DNA from: an uncultured Myxococcales bacterium
GTDB taxonomy: Bacteria; Myxococcota_A; UBA9042
Reading direction: 5' to 3'
DNA: 64,000 nucleotides
NCBI GenBank assembly: GCA_903955385.1
Contig: CAJBNH010000194.1
Span: forward strand, 1 to 64,000
Made by a program: the position numbers and the translations under genes. Position 1 is the stretch's first letter; every line of letters starts with the position of its first letter. Under the pieces are notes generated by a model that was not told the DNA's origin, ran no database searches, and saw nothing but the letters and a program-made list of their open reading frames with translations. Positions 55,441 through 61,922 of the stretch are shown piece after piece.

Positions 55441-56014
55441 ACAGCCCCCGATCCGCGATGGCAGCGGCAACTTCGAGGGGAAGCAGGCCCAGCGGCAACG
55501 GTTCTCCGCTGCGCAGGCGCTGGCGAAGCTCGGTCGAGCTGACGTCGGGGAGTTCTACGGCGAGCGCGTGGTCCAGAAAGGCTGCCTCCACGGCATAGCC
55601 CGGTCTTCGCAGAACCAAGGGAGGCGCGAGGTCTGCCAGCCGGTCGAATTGCTTCCAGCGGTGGCGTTCATGCAGCAGGTCGCTGCCGATGACGAGGCGA
55701 AAGTTCGCGTCCGGATGGCGTTCTTGCAGCCAGACCACGAGGTCGACGCTCGCTCCCGACGCCGCAGGGCGCGCCTCGTCGTCGCGCACCACGACCCGGT
55801 CCCCAAAGATCGCGAACGCCCTGCGACACAAGTCCATCCGGTCGGCAAACGACACACCCGGCGTCTTGCCCAACACGTGATGCGCCACCGGAAAAACCCA
55901 GACCTGACGGACGGATGCCGCACTGAGCACCGAGGCCACGGCAAGCACATGGGCCACGTGAGGCGGGTCGAAGGTGCCGCCGAAGACCGCGATCTCGGCA
56001 GCCGGCGCGGTCAC
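55430..56014 (-). CDS. nadD: Nicotinate-nucleotide adenylyltransferase
   Basis: NadD (194 aa) makes deamido-NAD from nicotinate mononucleotide and ATP. The nucleotidyltransferase motif AVFGGTFDPPHVAHV and the C-terminal VSSTELRQRLRSG (ISSTxIR) are present, with FRLVIGSDLLHERHRWKQFD between them. The start is GTG 56014, whose GTGA overlaps the stop of the upstream muramidase-like gene. Frames further upstream lack homology. It forms an operon with the NamZ-like and DUF2520 genes. Confidence 0.94.
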   Translation of the reverse strand: MTAPAAEIAVFGGTFDPPHVAHVLAVASVLSAASVRQVWVFPVAHHVLGKTPGVSFADRMDLCRRAFAIFGDRVVVRDDEARPAASGASVDLVVWLQERHPDANFRLVIGSDLLHERHRWKQFDRLADLAPPLVLRRPGYAVEAAFLDHALAVELPDVSSTELRQRLRSGEPLPLGLLPLEVAAAIADRGLYGR

Positions 56015-57273
56015 GGCGTCCCCCGGTCGGCCAAACCTGCGTCCAAACCAGCGAACACACCGCGAGCACGGGGGTAGATCAGGTGCGGCAAGGCGCGTCG
56101 GGCAAAGACGCGCTCCGCTTGGGCAAAGTCGCTGCAAGCGTCCCGGTAGTCGCCGCCCGCTTCCAGCACGGTGCGGGCGTGCGTGCCGCCCATCAACAGG
56201 TCGATCGCCAGACGATCCGACACGAACTCATAGACTTCCGTGCGCCACTCGAAGCGGGCGATGTCCTGCTCGCGCATCGCCTGGATCACGGCGACGCCCG
56301 CACGCACCGACGGAAACACCTGCCGATTCGTCACGTCCAACGCAACGCCGCCACAGGCCTGCCCGGCAAACTTCTGGAACGTCGGCTCGTAACGCATCGG
56401 CCGCGCCAGCAGACCGGGAATGCCAAGATCCATCAGCCGATCTGCCAACTTGCGGGCGTCCAGCCAGGGGGCGCCAACGAGCTCGAAGGGACGCGTCGTG
56501 CCGCGGCCTTCGCTGAGCTTGGTGCCTTCGACCAGACAGGTGCCGGGATAGACGACGGCGGTGGCCACGGTCGGCATGTTCGGCGACGGCGCGTACCACG
56601 GCGAGCCCCGCCCACCGTCGTCGCACTCGTCCAGGTGCAGCGCCGGGTCCCAGCCGCGACACGCGACGACGTTCAGGTCGACGTCGAGGCCCTGCTCATG
56701 CGCGTAGAGGCGACCGATCTCGCCCAGAGTCAGCCCGTGCCGCTGCGGCAGGTCGATGTAGCCGACAAAGCTGCGGTAATTGAGCGCGACCTCGTTGCCC
56801 TCGACCGTCTCGCCGCCCAGCGGATTCGGCCGGTCCAGCACCACGACCTGCACGCCCGCATTCGCGCACGCGGTCAGCGTCATGCACAGCGTCGCGGCAT
56901 AGGTGTAGTAGCGTGCGCCCACGTCCTGCACATCGAACACGACCACGTCGAGACCGCGCAGAACCTCTGGCCGCGGGGTCAGCGAATCGACGGATCGGCC
57001 ATACAATGTCGCGACTTCCAAGTCGAAGACAGGGTCACGACCGCCCTCGACCGGGATCAGGTCTTGCGCCGTGGACCACAAGCCGTGCTCCGGTCCAAAC
57101 AACCGCACGATCTGCACGCCGTGGGACCGCAACGCGTCGACAAGGTGGTGACGGCCGGGACCCAAGCGGGCCGCGCGCACAAGCGAGCTCGGGTTGCCAA
57201 CGACGGCGACGCGGCGCCCCTGGAGGAAGGAGAACCCATCCAGCTCCGCAACTTCAGCGCCTGTCCACAGCAT
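56011..57273 (-). CDS. NamZ-like exo-beta-N-acetylmuramidase (DUF1343)
   Basis: 420 residues of the DUF1343/NamZ family, which release N-acetylmuramic acid from peptidoglycan fragments. Motifs are GRRVAVVGNPSS, RLFGPEHGLWS, DVVVFDVQDVGARYYTY, VLDRPNPLGG, GYIDLPQRHGLTLGE, EGTKLSEGRGTTRPFE and YEPTFQKFAGQ. The C-terminal domain follows. Characterised NamZ is secreted, but this protein begins MLWTGAEVAELDGF and has no signal peptide, so it probably works in the cytoplasm on recycled muropeptides. The upstream small gene (57291-57536) is 17 bp away on the same strand. Confidence 0.88.
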   Translation of the reverse strand: MLWTGAEVAELDGFSFLQGRRVAVVGNPSSLVRAARLGPGRHHLVDALRSHGVQIVRLFGPEHGLWSTAQDLIPVEGGRDPVFDLEVATLYGRSVDSLTPRPEVLRGLDVVVFDVQDVGARYYTYAATLCMTLTACANAGVQVVVLDRPNPLGGETVEGNEVALNYRSFVGYIDLPQRHGLTLGEIGRLYAHEQGLDVDLNVVACRGWDPALHLDECDDGGRGSPWYAPSPNMPTVATAVVYPGTCLVEGTKLSEGRGTTRPFELVGAPWLDARKLADRLMDLGIPGLLARPMRYEPTFQKFAGQACGGVALDVTNRQVFPSVRAGVAVIQAMREQDIARFEWRTEVYEFVSDRLAIDLLMGGTHARTVLEAGGDYRDACSDFAQAERVFARRALPHLIYPRARGVFAGLDAGLADRGTP

Positions 57274-58310: not shown

Positions 58311-60134
58311 CTAGTGCCCGGCGTTCGCGTTGGGCTTGGAGTTCCAGATCCGCAGCGACAGCGCAAAGCCTAGCGCCGCAAACGGGATCAGGAAGATCGG
58401 CCACCAGAACCAGTCCTGCGAGGTCAGGAAGCCCAGCGACACCGACTGGAGCGCGGTACCCAAATAGACGAAGCCGTCGATGACGCCAACCGCCGTCGCG
58501 GCGCCCTTCTTGCCGCCGAAATCCATCGTCGCCGTGCCCGACAGCAGACCGTGGCTGCCGATCACCGAAACGCTGACCAGCACGACGATCAGGCCCAGCC
58601 ACCAAGGACTCATCGGCAGCTCGGGTCGGTCGGCGAGCAGCCGGTGATCCCCGGCGCGCTGGGATGGCTTGGGGTCCTTGACCATCACCTCGATCGTCTG
58701 GCCCTGCCGCAGCACCTTGGCGGGCAGGAAGCCTGCGGGCTGCGCGATCTTCGCGTTGGGGTCCGCCAGCTGACCCGTGCACATGCAGGCGCCGGCATCC
58801 CACGACGAGTTCTTGCACACGGGCTGCCAGCACGCGACGGCCCGGCTGACGTCGGCCCAACCCTCGACCTTGCGGCCGGCGATCACGAGCACCCGGTCGC
58901 CGGCCAGCAGCCCACTGCCCTTGGCCGGGACCGCCACGTCGGGGTGCGCGGGGGCAAGGGTGAACACCATGGCGATGGCAAGCAGGATGAGCGCGCCGTA
59001 CAAACCGGCCACGGCAGGACCGCGCCTACTCTGGAAGAAGAGGTCAGACACCCACCCCGCCACATTGCCGCCGACGACGCCTGCGATGAACAGCAAGCCA
59101 CCCCAGCCGCCCTGAACGAACGGCGAGAGGAACAGCAACCCGGCGACAACGTAGACCCAGCCCTTGGCCGAGCCTTTGAGACGACTGGCGGCAAACGCAA
59201 GCAAGGCGGCGGCGGCGAAAGAACCGACCAGCAGCGTCGGGTTTTCCCACTCGCCCTCCATCAGCAAGTGCTGCTTGGGAAGGACCCACACCTCTTTGGC
59301 GTAGATGGGAAACCAATGCATCACGCCGTTGCGAAGGATGCCGGTGCAGAACTCGATGGCGGCCACCACCAGGATCACCGGGTGCGTCAGAATGCGCTTG
59401 AGCAGCGCAAGCGTGGCCTCTGGCGCCGAGCTGGTGTCGCCGGACGAGGCGTCGCCGGTGTCGAAGTCGCGGTGCCCCGCGTCTCCCGGGGTGTCCTTGA
59501 GCAGAAAGAACTCGAGGAGCGTGAACGCTCCCAGAAACAGCGCCGGCCCCAAGAAGACGATCCACTGCGCAGGCTTGTCGGGCCACCAAGAGTCGGCCAG
59601 GGTCAGCAGCCACCCGTTGACGGTGAAGGCCAGGAACAGACCCGACGAGATCATGGTGCCGAAGATGCCGGAGAAGCCGCCGCGCTCGTTGACGTGGAAC
59701 CAATGCGCGTTGACCTTGACGACCGAGACGGCACCAAAGCTCTGGAAGTACATGTTGATGGCGTACAACAGGCTGAAGATCAGGACCTTGTGGCCGCTGT
59801 CCGCACCGGCGTCGATGACCCACCACACGTAGGCGCCCATCACCAGATTGGCGACCGCTGCGCCGCCGGCCGCCAGCAGGATGCCGCGACGCCCGCCGAT
59901 GCGGTCGATCAGGGGGCCGTTGACCAGAAAGGCGATCGCGTAACACACGGTGCCGGCGCCAAAGATGATGCCGAAGTCCTCCTTCGTCATCAGCTCGCCC
60001 AAGGAATTCTTCGCCACCGTCAGGTTGTAGCGCGCCATGTACAACAGGGCGTACGTGACCCCCATCGGGAACCAGTTCAGGACGCGGCGGGTCTTGAACG
60101 CCTTCGAGTGCACCGGCGGGTCGGCAGCGGTCAT
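58311..60134 (-). CDS. OPA-family MFS transporter with PDZ-like insertion
   Basis: 607 residues. The MFS organophosphate:phosphate antiporter (GlpT/UhpC-like) pattern is visible: RYNLTVAKNSLGELMTKEDFG, GPLIDRIGGRRGILLAAG, NAHWFHVNERGGFSGIFGT, and GTATMDFGGKKGAATAVG in the second half. The two six-helix halves are interrupted at about residues 395-508 by a soluble segment with VPAKGSGLLAGDRVLVIAGRKVEG, a PDZ-type signature, plus four cysteines (435, 440, 450, 452). Typical family members have about 450 residues and no such domain. It lies after the helix that follows residue 378, so the segment faces one side of the membrane; I cannot say which. AGGAG precedes ATG 60134. Confidence 0.85.
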   Translation of the reverse strand: MTAADPPVHSKAFKTRRVLNWFPMGVTYALLYMARYNLTVAKNSLGELMTKEDFGIIFGAGTVCYAIAFLVNGPLIDRIGGRRGILLAAGGAAVANLVMGAYVWWVIDAGADSGHKVLIFSLLYAINMYFQSFGAVSVVKVNAHWFHVNERGGFSGIFGTMISSGLFLAFTVNGWLLTLADSWWPDKPAQWIVFLGPALFLGAFTLLEFFLLKDTPGDAGHRDFDTGDASSGDTSSAPEATLALLKRILTHPVILVVAAIEFCTGILRNGVMHWFPIYAKEVWVLPKQHLLMEGEWENPTLLVGSFAAAALLAFAASRLKGSAKGWVYVVAGLLFLSPFVQGGWGGLLFIAGVVGGNVAGWVSDLFFQSRRGPAVAGLYGALILLAIAMVFTLAPAHPDVAVPAKGSGLLAGDRVLVIAGRKVEGWADVSRAVACWQPVCKNSSWDAGACMCTGQLADPNAKIAQPAGFLPAKVLRQGQTIEVMVKDPKPSQRAGDHRLLADRPELPMSPWWLGLIVVLVSVSVIGSHGLLSGTATMDFGGKKGAATAVGVIDGFVYLGTALQSVSLGFLTSQDWFWWPIFLIPFAALGFALSLRIWNSKPNANAGH

Positions 60135-60320: not shown

Positions 60321-61922
60321 ATGTATCGTGAGTCTCCAGTGCTGCCGCACTTCACCTCTCGCATGTACGACTACCCAGCTCCCAACGAGCTCCATCTTCG
60401 GGTCGATGTTCACGATCGCTCGCGTGTCGAGTGGGTCGCCACCGTCCCCATGGCGCCGGCAGGTGAGCAACATACCTACGAAATTCTGTTTGAAGCCGAC
60501 GTGCCCGACTCCGTCTGGGTGCGTCACGTCCCTTGGGACCACTTCCAAGTACGCACGCGGCTGACCAGCCCGACGCTGACGCCGGGCCAGAAGCTGACGT
60601 GCCCGCCGATCGATCTGGTGCGCCGACGCGGGCTCGGGGCGGTTCACCTGCTGAAGCTCGGCACGCGCCCCCTGCTCGAGACGCTGTCTCAGGCACGGCG
60701 ACGGGACAACACGCTGCATCCGGAAGAGGCCGAGCACGTCCTCGACTCCCTGCGCGCCGCCATCGGGCGGGCCAATGCAGCCCGGCAGGCCATCGACGAG
60801 CTGCACGACTCGAACGACGCCTCGCTGGAGCGGGAGCGGGCACTTGCGGGCGAGTACATCTCGACGCAGGTCATGCTGGTGATCACGCGGGTCGGCGACG
60901 CCATGGCGAAAGCGCGTTCTCCGCGCGGTCGGGTCCGCCCGGCGCTGGGAGGCGCCGTCTCTGGCGTGCGCGCCGCGCTGCAAGAGGCGCTGCTGGCTGA
61001 GCAAGGCTACCGACGCACGGCTGGCATCAAGATCGAGGCGATTCGCACCGCGCGCGACATCGAGCCGTTCGTCAACCGCGCGGCCCTGCTGAAGAAACAC
61101 TTCCAGCAAGCCCTGTTCCTGGACGCCAGCGCGTACATGCTGGACCAACGGCTGCGCAACTGGATCGCGGCGGCCGTCGCGATGATCGCGTCGACCTTCT
61201 ACTTCGTGTGGCAGGTCTACGTGCTGAACACGGCGATGTCCGCCCAACAGACCACGGTTTCGCTGGCCATGGCCGCCTTGGTCGCCGCGCTGGTGTACGC
61301 CGCCAAGGATCGCATCAAGGAGGTGGGGCGCGACTGGCTGGCCCTGCGCCTCAAGCACATCTTTGCCGACCGCGTCGCGCACCTGCGCCTGCCCGCGCGC
61401 ATGGACAAGCGACGTCGCGGCTTTGCGCTGGCGAGAGAGACGATCTCGGTGACCAAGCAGCTGCAACCCGACCCGCTGAACCCCGGCGTGGGCCAAACGA
61501 CCTCTGTGCACCACCTGAAGGTCCGCGAGCTGCTGCGACACCGCGGCTTGGGACTGTTGCACGACCAAGGCCTCAACGGCCTGAAGCACGTGTTCCGCTA
61601 TGACCTCTCGCCCCATTTCGCCAAGCTGGACGACCACTTGAAGCGGGTGCCGATGGTAACGATGGGCGGCGTGCGGTCCGTCGGCGCGACCCGGCTGTAC
61701 CGCATCCCCATGCGCGTCAGCCTGCAGCGCATCGACGTCGAGGGCGCACCGATCATCGAGCGCCGCGTCGTGCTGCTGCTGCGCCGTCGGGGTCTCGAGC
61801 GGGTGGTTCCGGTCGACGACGTTCGCAACGGGCGCACGCTGCCCGCGGCGATGCCCACGCCCAAGGCCGTCGAGACGACGGTTGCCCCGGATGACAACGC
61901 CACCGACCGCGCGAGGACCTGA
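60321..61922 (+). CDS. Unknown membrane protein with central helix pair (533 aa)
   Basis: 533 residues. The N-terminal 110 residues look like a beta-rich domain. A helical, charged region (about 110-270) includes EALLAEQGYRRTAGIKIEAIR. Two membrane helices follow (NWIAAAVAMIASTFYFVWQV and TVSLAMAALVAALVYAAKD), and a basic C-terminal 200-residue region with LPARMDKRRRGFALARETIS and HDQGLNGLKHVFRYDLS. I do not recognise the family. The stop overlaps the start of the next small membrane gene as TGATG, so the two are coupled. The start ATG 60321 has only a weak ribosome site. Confidence 0.72.
   Translation: MYRESPVLPHFTSRMYDYPAPNELHLRVDVHDRSRVEWVATVPMAPAGEQHTYEILFEADVPDSVWVRHVPWDHFQVRTRLTSPTLTPGQKLTCPPIDLVRRRGLGAVHLLKLGTRPLLETLSQARRRDNTLHPEEAEHVLDSLRAAIGRANAARQAIDELHDSNDASLERERALAGEYISTQVMLVITRVGDAMAKARSPRGRVRPALGGAVSGVRAALQEALLAEQGYRRTAGIKIEAIRTARDIEPFVNRAALLKKHFQQALFLDASAYMLDQRLRNWIAAAVAMIASTFYFVWQVYVLNTAMSAQQTTVSLAMAALVAALVYAAKDRIKEVGRDWLALRLKHIFADRVAHLRLPARMDKRRRGFALARETISVTKQLQPDPLNPGVGQTTSVHHLKVRELLRHRGLGLLHDQGLNGLKHVFRYDLSPHFAKLDDHLKRVPMVTMGGVRSVGATRLYRIPMRVSLQRIDVEGAPIIERRVVLLLRRRGLERVVPVDDVRNGRTLPAAMPTPKAVETTVAPDDNATDRART

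Follow-up and report, generated by a model that had tools for sequence, protein, structure and literature searches.

The best-described relatives of the transporter analysed here belong to the OPA/SLC37 branch of the MFS, represented by GlpT (1pw4), SLC37A2 (9ucm) and SLC37A4; the OPA family also contains a receptor, UhpC. In SV2A and SV2B, a luminal domain occupies the TM7-TM8 loop. Periplasmic PDZ domains mounted on a membrane core are found in site-2 proteases (S2P) of the RseP type, including 3id3, 3wkl and MucP, and PMC4597795 describes the RseP PDZ tandem as covering the membrane core and acting as a size-exclusion filter. The animal OATP1B1 and OATP1B3 carry a Cys-rich Kazal-like domain of unknown function in ECL5, above the C-bundle, which is said in PMC10507018 to be absent from other transporters. 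In mycobacterial Rv1410, extra helices are required for transport and a TM9-TM10 β-hairpin is not, according to PMC10576003. An MFS transporter with a PDZ domain in a loop was not found described in the literature searched, with subscription papers and preprints lying mostly outside that search, and the words 'transporter' and 'MFS' are absent from the main text of the microbial PDZ survey PMC6411480.

The window, a stretch of 64,000 nucleotides from an uncultured Myxococcales bacterium (contig CAJBNH010000194.1), contains a gene whose product combines features of several of these systems. Like OPA/SLC37 members, which take Foldseek ranks 1-16, the protein aligns with both GlpT arginines, and unlike them it carries a TM7-TM8 hairpin and a predicted TM9-TM10 PDZ domain and scores far below the NCBIfam OPA cut-offs. 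The PDZ finds its best sequence and structure matches among the RseP/S2P PDZs, with which it would share the placement of a periplasmic PDZ on a membrane core, but the window protein has no metalloprotease domain (Pfam places only MFS_1 above its cut-off), a Cys module lies within the PDZ, and a single PDZ is housed in a transporter loop. SV2A and SV2B are among the structural matches of the full model in VIA-align and differ from the window protein in both the domain and the loop that holds it. By loop counting, ECL5 of the animal OATP/SLCO proteins is the TM9-TM10 loop, so that both families have a Cys-rich extracellular domain at this site (PMC10507018), but the OATP domain is Kazal-like and that of the window protein a PDZ; Kazal families were not detected in 31 inserts at E up to 0.1 in Pfam, and the likeness is one of convergent placement, not kinship. 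The mycobacterial DHA2 transporters Rv1410 and MHAS2168 likewise add an extra helix hairpin and periplasmic elaborations to an MFS core, but their hairpin lies between TM6 and TM7 and their elaborations are TM11-TM12 extensions and a β-hairpin, as described in PMC10576003.

Transporter core and TM7-TM8 hairpin

The gene lies at 58311..60134 on the minus strand, as do all features of the protein given below, and encodes 607 residues of an OPA/SLC37-like MFS transporter with two periplasmic-side insertions. The preliminary description gave the coordinates correctly, and the strand is added here. The reading frame runs from an ATG at 60134, preceded by GGAG, to a stop codon at 58311-58313, and its N-terminus agrees with those of the orthologues in the alignment. 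No promoter-like site was found for the gene, the single site seen lying on the opposite strand; two terminator-like sites both fall within the gene, at a frequency no higher than in shuffled sequence, and plasmid records gave no match at E 1e-10.

MFS_1 is the sole Pfam family above its cut-off for the whole protein. The NCBIfam models of phosphoglycerate, glycerol-3-phosphate and hexose-phosphate transporters match well under their cut-offs, and those of the PgtP, GlpT, UhpC and UhpT models are not reached (best score 103.6 bits against 407.75). A family profile aligns with GlpT at E 2.9e-11 and pairs R35 with GlpT R45 and R268 with GlpT R269, which we take to be the two substrate arginines; both are invariant in all 51 rows of alignment A2, comprising the window and 50 of the 80 loci of a named-genome scan. 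The AlphaFold2 model of the whole protein (pLDDT 89.3, pTM 0.89) retrieves SLC37A2, SLC37A4/G6PT and GlpT at Foldseek ranks 1-16 (E 2.7e-10 to 4.7e-8). In VIA-align, VAChT (Z 40.1) and SLC37A4 (Z 39.9) are tied and OPA is not separable from other MFS families, so that this comparison does not discriminate for OPA/SLC37. On the NCBIfam matches, the Foldseek ranks and the GlpT profile, the OPA-type class proposed in the preliminary description stands; the core is OPA/SLC37-like, a relative of the named OPA members and not one of them. The two conserved arginines suggest an anionic, organophosphate-like substrate.

The core is divided into an N-terminal half with TM1-TM6 (residues 1-212, 59499..60134, with R35 at 60030-60032), TM7 (residues 252-272, 59319..59381), which contains R268, TM8 and TM9 (residues 344-392, 58959..59105), and TM10-TM12 (residues 509-598, 58341..58610), placed by the full model and by alignment to bare relatives. 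Compared with relatives that lack them, two additional pieces are present in the second half, so that the transporter is not, as had been supposed, otherwise ordinary apart from the loop domain. The first piece, of about 47 residues, is a hydrophobic hairpin between TM7 and TM8 (residues 297-343, 59106..59246) with segments at approximately 299-316 and 322-341 and a positive turn. The net charge of the turn is +2 to +5 in all 42 hairpin rows of A2 (mean +3.8), and the stretch preceding the hairpin has a mean charge of -0.3. Given the turn charge and the positive-inside rule, the piece is predicted to be a hairpin in the membrane whose turn is cytoplasmic, and the 14 predicted helices would represent the 12 of the core and the hairpin. 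The AlphaFold2 model draws one helix over 322-366 and another over 510-573; the objection that a single helix at 322-366 excludes a membrane hairpin was rejected, because the helix at 510-573 must likewise hold both TM10 and TM11. Three members of a distant subfamily (L226, L227 and L228) have a long TM7-TM8 insertion of their own, apparently independent of the hairpin, and their aligned TM7-TM8 span is 112 residues, against 88 in the window protein and 42 in a bare relative. We hold the anatomy of the transporter and its inserts with high confidence.

A predicted RseP-type PDZ domain in the TM9-TM10 loop

The second piece comprises residues 393-505 (58620..58958) in the TM9-TM10 loop. An insert of about 113 residues in the second half had been noted in the preliminary description, and it is retained in all 16 full-length orthologues, which share 51-66% identity. 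In the alignment with GlpT, whose membrane topology was used for siding the loop, residues up to 392 correspond to GlpT up to 340, where TM9 ends, and the insert comes before TM10. From this alignment and from charge we infer a periplasmic location; the TM8-TM9 part of the alignment scores 16.6 bits, and the TM10-TM11 part only 0.8 bits, which counts against this siding.

Evidence for the fold comes from the family and from the models more than from the sequence of the window protein, which matches Pfam PDZ_2 at 12.8-16.7 bits, under the cut-off of 27, and has no match in the PDB at E 0.01 by plain phmmer. From the relatives, 40 loop segments were extracted, 35 PDZ-type and five KSB1-type; the former and the window make up alignment A4, and 30 of them and the window alignment A3. 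Among the 31 inserts, Pfam detects PDZ_6 in 17, PDZ in 15 and PDZ_2 in six at E ≤0.1. The A3 profile matches the tandem PDZ of A. aeolicus RseP (3wkl) at E 6.7e-10, with profile positions 6-42 and 74-100 aligned and the Cys module in between unaligned. Modelled alone by AlphaFold2 (pLDDT 90.9, pTM 0.82), the insert has RseP/S2P-type PDZs as all 19 of its best Foldseek matches (E 2.6e-4 to 1.0e-2), led by 3id3 (E 2.6e-4; TM-score 0.53 by query and 0.69 by target; rmsd 4.8). RseP PDZ2 is the best match in VIA-align (Z 10.2 over 84 residues, 3.3 Å), and the first 23 rows are all of RseP/S2P type, with 2zpl counted as RseP via its sister entry 2zpm.

These models and profiles identify the insert as a predicted PDZ domain of the RseP (site-2-protease) type. 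The contrary reading, that the segment is disordered or a plain extended loop whose PDZ likeness arose by chance, could appeal to the sub-threshold PDZ_2 score of the window protein taken alone, but the family profile, the confident model of the insert and the VIA-align score make it extremely improbable; the segment is predicted to be a compact fold, and the PDZ assignment of the preliminary description is sustained by these three results and by the Foldseek matches. The insert is also not a chance feature because orthologues, the cysteines and purifying selection maintain it. In the full model, TM9 ends at residue 392 and the first PDZ strand starts at 399, and the last bridge is at 503-504 with TM10 starting at 510, leaving linkers of five to six residues on either side.

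The four-Cys module

Four cysteines within 18 residues had been recorded in the preliminary description and are located at C435, C440, C450 and C452 (58779..58832), after the PDZ helix and within the PDZ; in the full model the module sits between the helix at 426-434 and the strand at 469-476. The Cys-rich part constitutes a module of its own, set into the PDZ. Of the 37 loci with the insert in the named-genome scan, from which L070, L083 and L096 were excluded as their sequences end before the insert, 35 have all four cysteines, as do 35 of 35 genomes with the insert in the phylum searches, which overlap with that scan. In the two exceptions, L053 and L063, C2 and C4 are retained without C1 and C3. 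Both are Myxococcota, L053 coming from sheep colon, and they form a single clade in the tree (support 100); the loss of C1 and C3 was probably one event. The four cysteines probably form two disulfides, and the joint loss of C1 and C3 in these loci suggests the pairing C1-C3 and C2-C4.

In the genomes searched, the Cys-PDZ insert was seen only in this transporter. When 377 genomes were searched with the insert profile, with 11 candidates scored per genome, 35 gave a match, in each case in a transporter with the hairpin and the four-Cys module; these are 34 genomes of the phylum sample and one further genome (G364). The window's own genome contains one other match, with a non-significant E of 0.44 (150 of 152 candidates scored): an 805-aa ORF (L236:565-2982) that looks by eye like an RseP/site-2 protease homologue and apparently has three PDZ-like GLxxGD segments, not two.

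Peptide-binding site and gene neighbourhood

The segment GSGLLAGDRVLVIAGRKVEG (residues 406-425, 58860..58919) had been interpreted as the carboxylate-binding loop of the PDZ. From the motif positions that we presume for PDZ domains, it is instead the GLxxGD segment leading from αA to βD, with an invariant D413; in the full model the GLxxGD segment lies between strands 399-402 and 414-418 and overlaps the second. PDZs of the RseP type are reportedly circularly permuted, to go by the title of Inaba 2008, and the peptide-binding strand would then be expected at the end of the domain. An A-G-D-x-R-x-L-x-x-x-P stretch is found there, towards TM10 (residues 494-504, 58623..58655), of which A494, G495, D496, R498, L500 and P504 are invariant in the 17 rows of alignment A1. 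Across the 31 inserts, G495, R498 and P504 never vary, and 26 show the complete motif exactly. The expected position of the carboxylate loop and βB is thus occupied by the charged A-G-D-x-R-x-L, and no β strand is predicted over 494-500.

The neighbourhood was compared across 37 loci including the window, using ORFs of at least 90 aa, BLAST matches of at least 80 bits and flanks of up to 7 kb, shorter at contig ends; the cluster of the transporter itself was set aside, as were three made up of other frames overlying it. No conserved partner gene was found, and the widest non-self clusters reach seven of the 37 loci. A few ORFs downstream, the gene at 56011-57273 on the minus strand encodes a NamZ-type exo-β-N-acetylmuramidase (Pfam NamZ_N 2.3e-61, NamZ_C 4.6e-43), the cluster of which is common to three of the 37 loci (the window, L047 and L057); its proximity hints weakly at the recycling of cell-wall sugars nearby. 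The divergent neighbour at 60321-61922 on the plus strand, of 533 aa, has no Pfam family above cut-off and its cluster occurs in five of the 37 loci.

These results bear on two explanations of the insert. In the first, the transporter is docked, localised or regulated by way of a partner in the periplasm or outer membrane, whose C-terminal tail the PDZ would bind. The RseP-type fold and the close structural match to MucP PDZ2, which has been solved with a peptide (7xfu), would suit such a role, and evolution is faster in the insert than in the core, as could be the case for a domain that faces a partner. The charged stretch without a predicted strand at the expected binding site and the lack of a co-travelling partner gene in the flanks stand against it, and we regard tail binding as unlikely, if still worth weighing. 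In the second, the PDZ is the periplasmic sensing domain of a receptor or transceptor like UhpC. The NCBIfam UhpC receptor model does give a weak match (52.3 bits against a cut-off of 564), but the substrate arginines are kept throughout A2 and no neighbour gene of any kind is widely common to the 37 loci, so that this explanation appears very improbable.

Distribution and history of the loop domain

The transporter family is present in 122 of 282 genomes of the window's phylum, Myxococcota by the titles of matching records, at E 1e-60. Its members divide into 34 with the hairpin and the Cys-PDZ, two with a double Cys-less PDZ, 85 with no TM9-TM10 domain, in which the loop is at most 59 residues, and one cut by a contig end. 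The 34 genomes answer the question raised in the preliminary description of whether the same fusion occurs in other Myxococcota. By title, the insert-bearing records are mostly Myxococcota MAGs, with exceptions that include one 'Oligoflexales' and three 'proteobacterium' titles. Five relatives from Acidobacteria, Planctomycetota and one further MAG have the hairpin without the PDZ (L072, L073, L075, L084 and L104). Two others, L025 and L026, have two PDZs in the TM9-TM10 loop and no Cys module, and their PDZs score 51.3 and 32.7 bits, above the Pfam cut-off of 27. A query with residues 337-553 of L025 spans TM helices, and its matches in 15 of 52 genomes are mostly to the surroundings of TM10; the whole query is matched in two genomes only (G031 and G034).

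A different domain is found in seven KSB1-type relatives (L071, L077, L079, L080, L081, L082 and L100), from four KSB1 MAGs and three other MAGs, in which the TM9-TM10 loop holds an unrelated domain of about 110 residues. In the members tested, this domain gave no Pfam family at E 0.1 (the whole proteins L071 and L100 match only MFS_1 and the L077 insert nothing) and no match to PDB sequences at E 1, and comparison with the PDZ insert by hhalign gave a probability of 0.4%, showing no profile similarity.

A tree was computed for 82 rows after removal of the insert columns, by a quick method with SH-aLRT support only; three long branches were flagged, and one warning was given that long branches meet. 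In this tree the hairpin rows form one group of 33 (support 98). The KSB1-type rows form one group of seven (99) nested in another group (97). The rows with the double PDZ form one pair (100) that adjoins the hairpin group with weak support (85). Twelve near-duplicates and L069, L070, L083, L096 and L101 are omitted, and 16 of the 91 census sequences are included. As the PDZ and KSB1-type rows fall in separate groups, the TM9-TM10 loop has probably been filled at least twice. The four hairpin-only rows included fall within the PDZ-bearing group by two unstarred placements, which suggests that the PDZ was likely lost in these relatives.

When 36 insert-bearing rows are compared with the window protein, the core regions show an average identity of 0.64-0.77, the PDZ one of 0.39 and the hairpin one of 0.36. 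In 10 of 10 pairs, which have members in common and dS of up to 2, the PDZ has a dN/dS of 0.10-0.31, which in each pair exceeds that of TM10-TM12. These comparisons indicate that the PDZ is maintained by purifying selection, yet is freer than the core. The combination of purifying selection and low identity would also fit a ligand-free structural elaboration that stabilises the C-bundle or a homo-oligomer and on which the fold now depends. Such a role is in keeping with the absence of the domain from hairpin-only relatives and with the dispensable TM9-TM10 hairpin of Rv1410 (PMC10576003), but the loop has been filled by different domains, apparently independently (a PDZ in Myxococcota and an unrelated domain in KSB1-type relatives), and eight residues are invariant in all 31 inserts of A3, beyond the needs of a filler. 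A purely structural role is considered doubtful, on a par with tail binding.

Possible role of the PDZ domain

The observation made in the preliminary description is confirmed, and its interpretation is partly supported. The transporter class, the PDZ fold and the fusion in other Myxococcota are supported, and the carboxylate-loop assignment is not; that the PDZ might bind C-terminal tails and gate or localise the transporter is a suggestion of that description. As the best explanation overall, which we hold tentatively and a little short of an even chance, the protein would be a secondary transporter of the OPA/SLC37 branch in which the periplasmic TM9-TM10 loop has been turned into a compact RseP-type PDZ with a four-Cys module. 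The PDZ would be fastened to both TM9 and TM10 and, because the linkers are only five to six residues, would have to rock together with the C-bundle. It could then serve as a rigid periplasmic cap that narrows or filters the outward-facing mouth, or presents a docking face there. The role as cap or filter, taken by itself, is a possibility of somewhat lower confidence; it is favoured by analogy, since a filtering function is ascribed to the PDZ tandem of RseP and the PDZ here is predicted to be anchored to the C-bundle. Its close rivals are docking to the tail of a partner and a role that is structural only.

Several observations argue against a cap. Conservation is far lower in the insert than in the transporter core, hairpin-only relatives lack the PDZ, and 85 of the 122 family members in the phylum sample have no loop domain at all. 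The PDZ domains of RseP/YaeL are reportedly dispensable or non-essential in some assays, to judge from the titles of Bohn 2004 and Hizukuri and Akiyama 2012, which by analogy would weaken the case for a cap. By the same kind of analogy, the TM9-TM10 β-hairpin of Rv1410 can be deleted without losing lipid transport, according to PMC10576003, and an element in this loop may thus be dispensable.

A broader reading, which we consider rather improbable, is that the TM9-TM10 loop is a recurrent MFS site for regulatory domains and that the PDZ acts as a periplasmic gate which reads protein tails or redox state and is coupled to organophosphate transport. It would cover the putatively disulfide-stapled PDZ of Myxococcota, the unrelated domain of KSB1-type relatives and the Kazal-like domain of animal OATPs. 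If a periplasmic gate of this kind were true, it would represent a new mode of secondary-transporter regulation that is easily testable in bacteria. Taken together, the data describe a conserved, predicted-folded PDZ in one transporter family, with natural relatives that have no such domain, two of them or a different one. These PDZ-bearing, bare and other-domain relatives may offer a ready comparison for the role of extracellular MFS domains, including the Kazal-like domain of the OATPs as described in PMC10507018.
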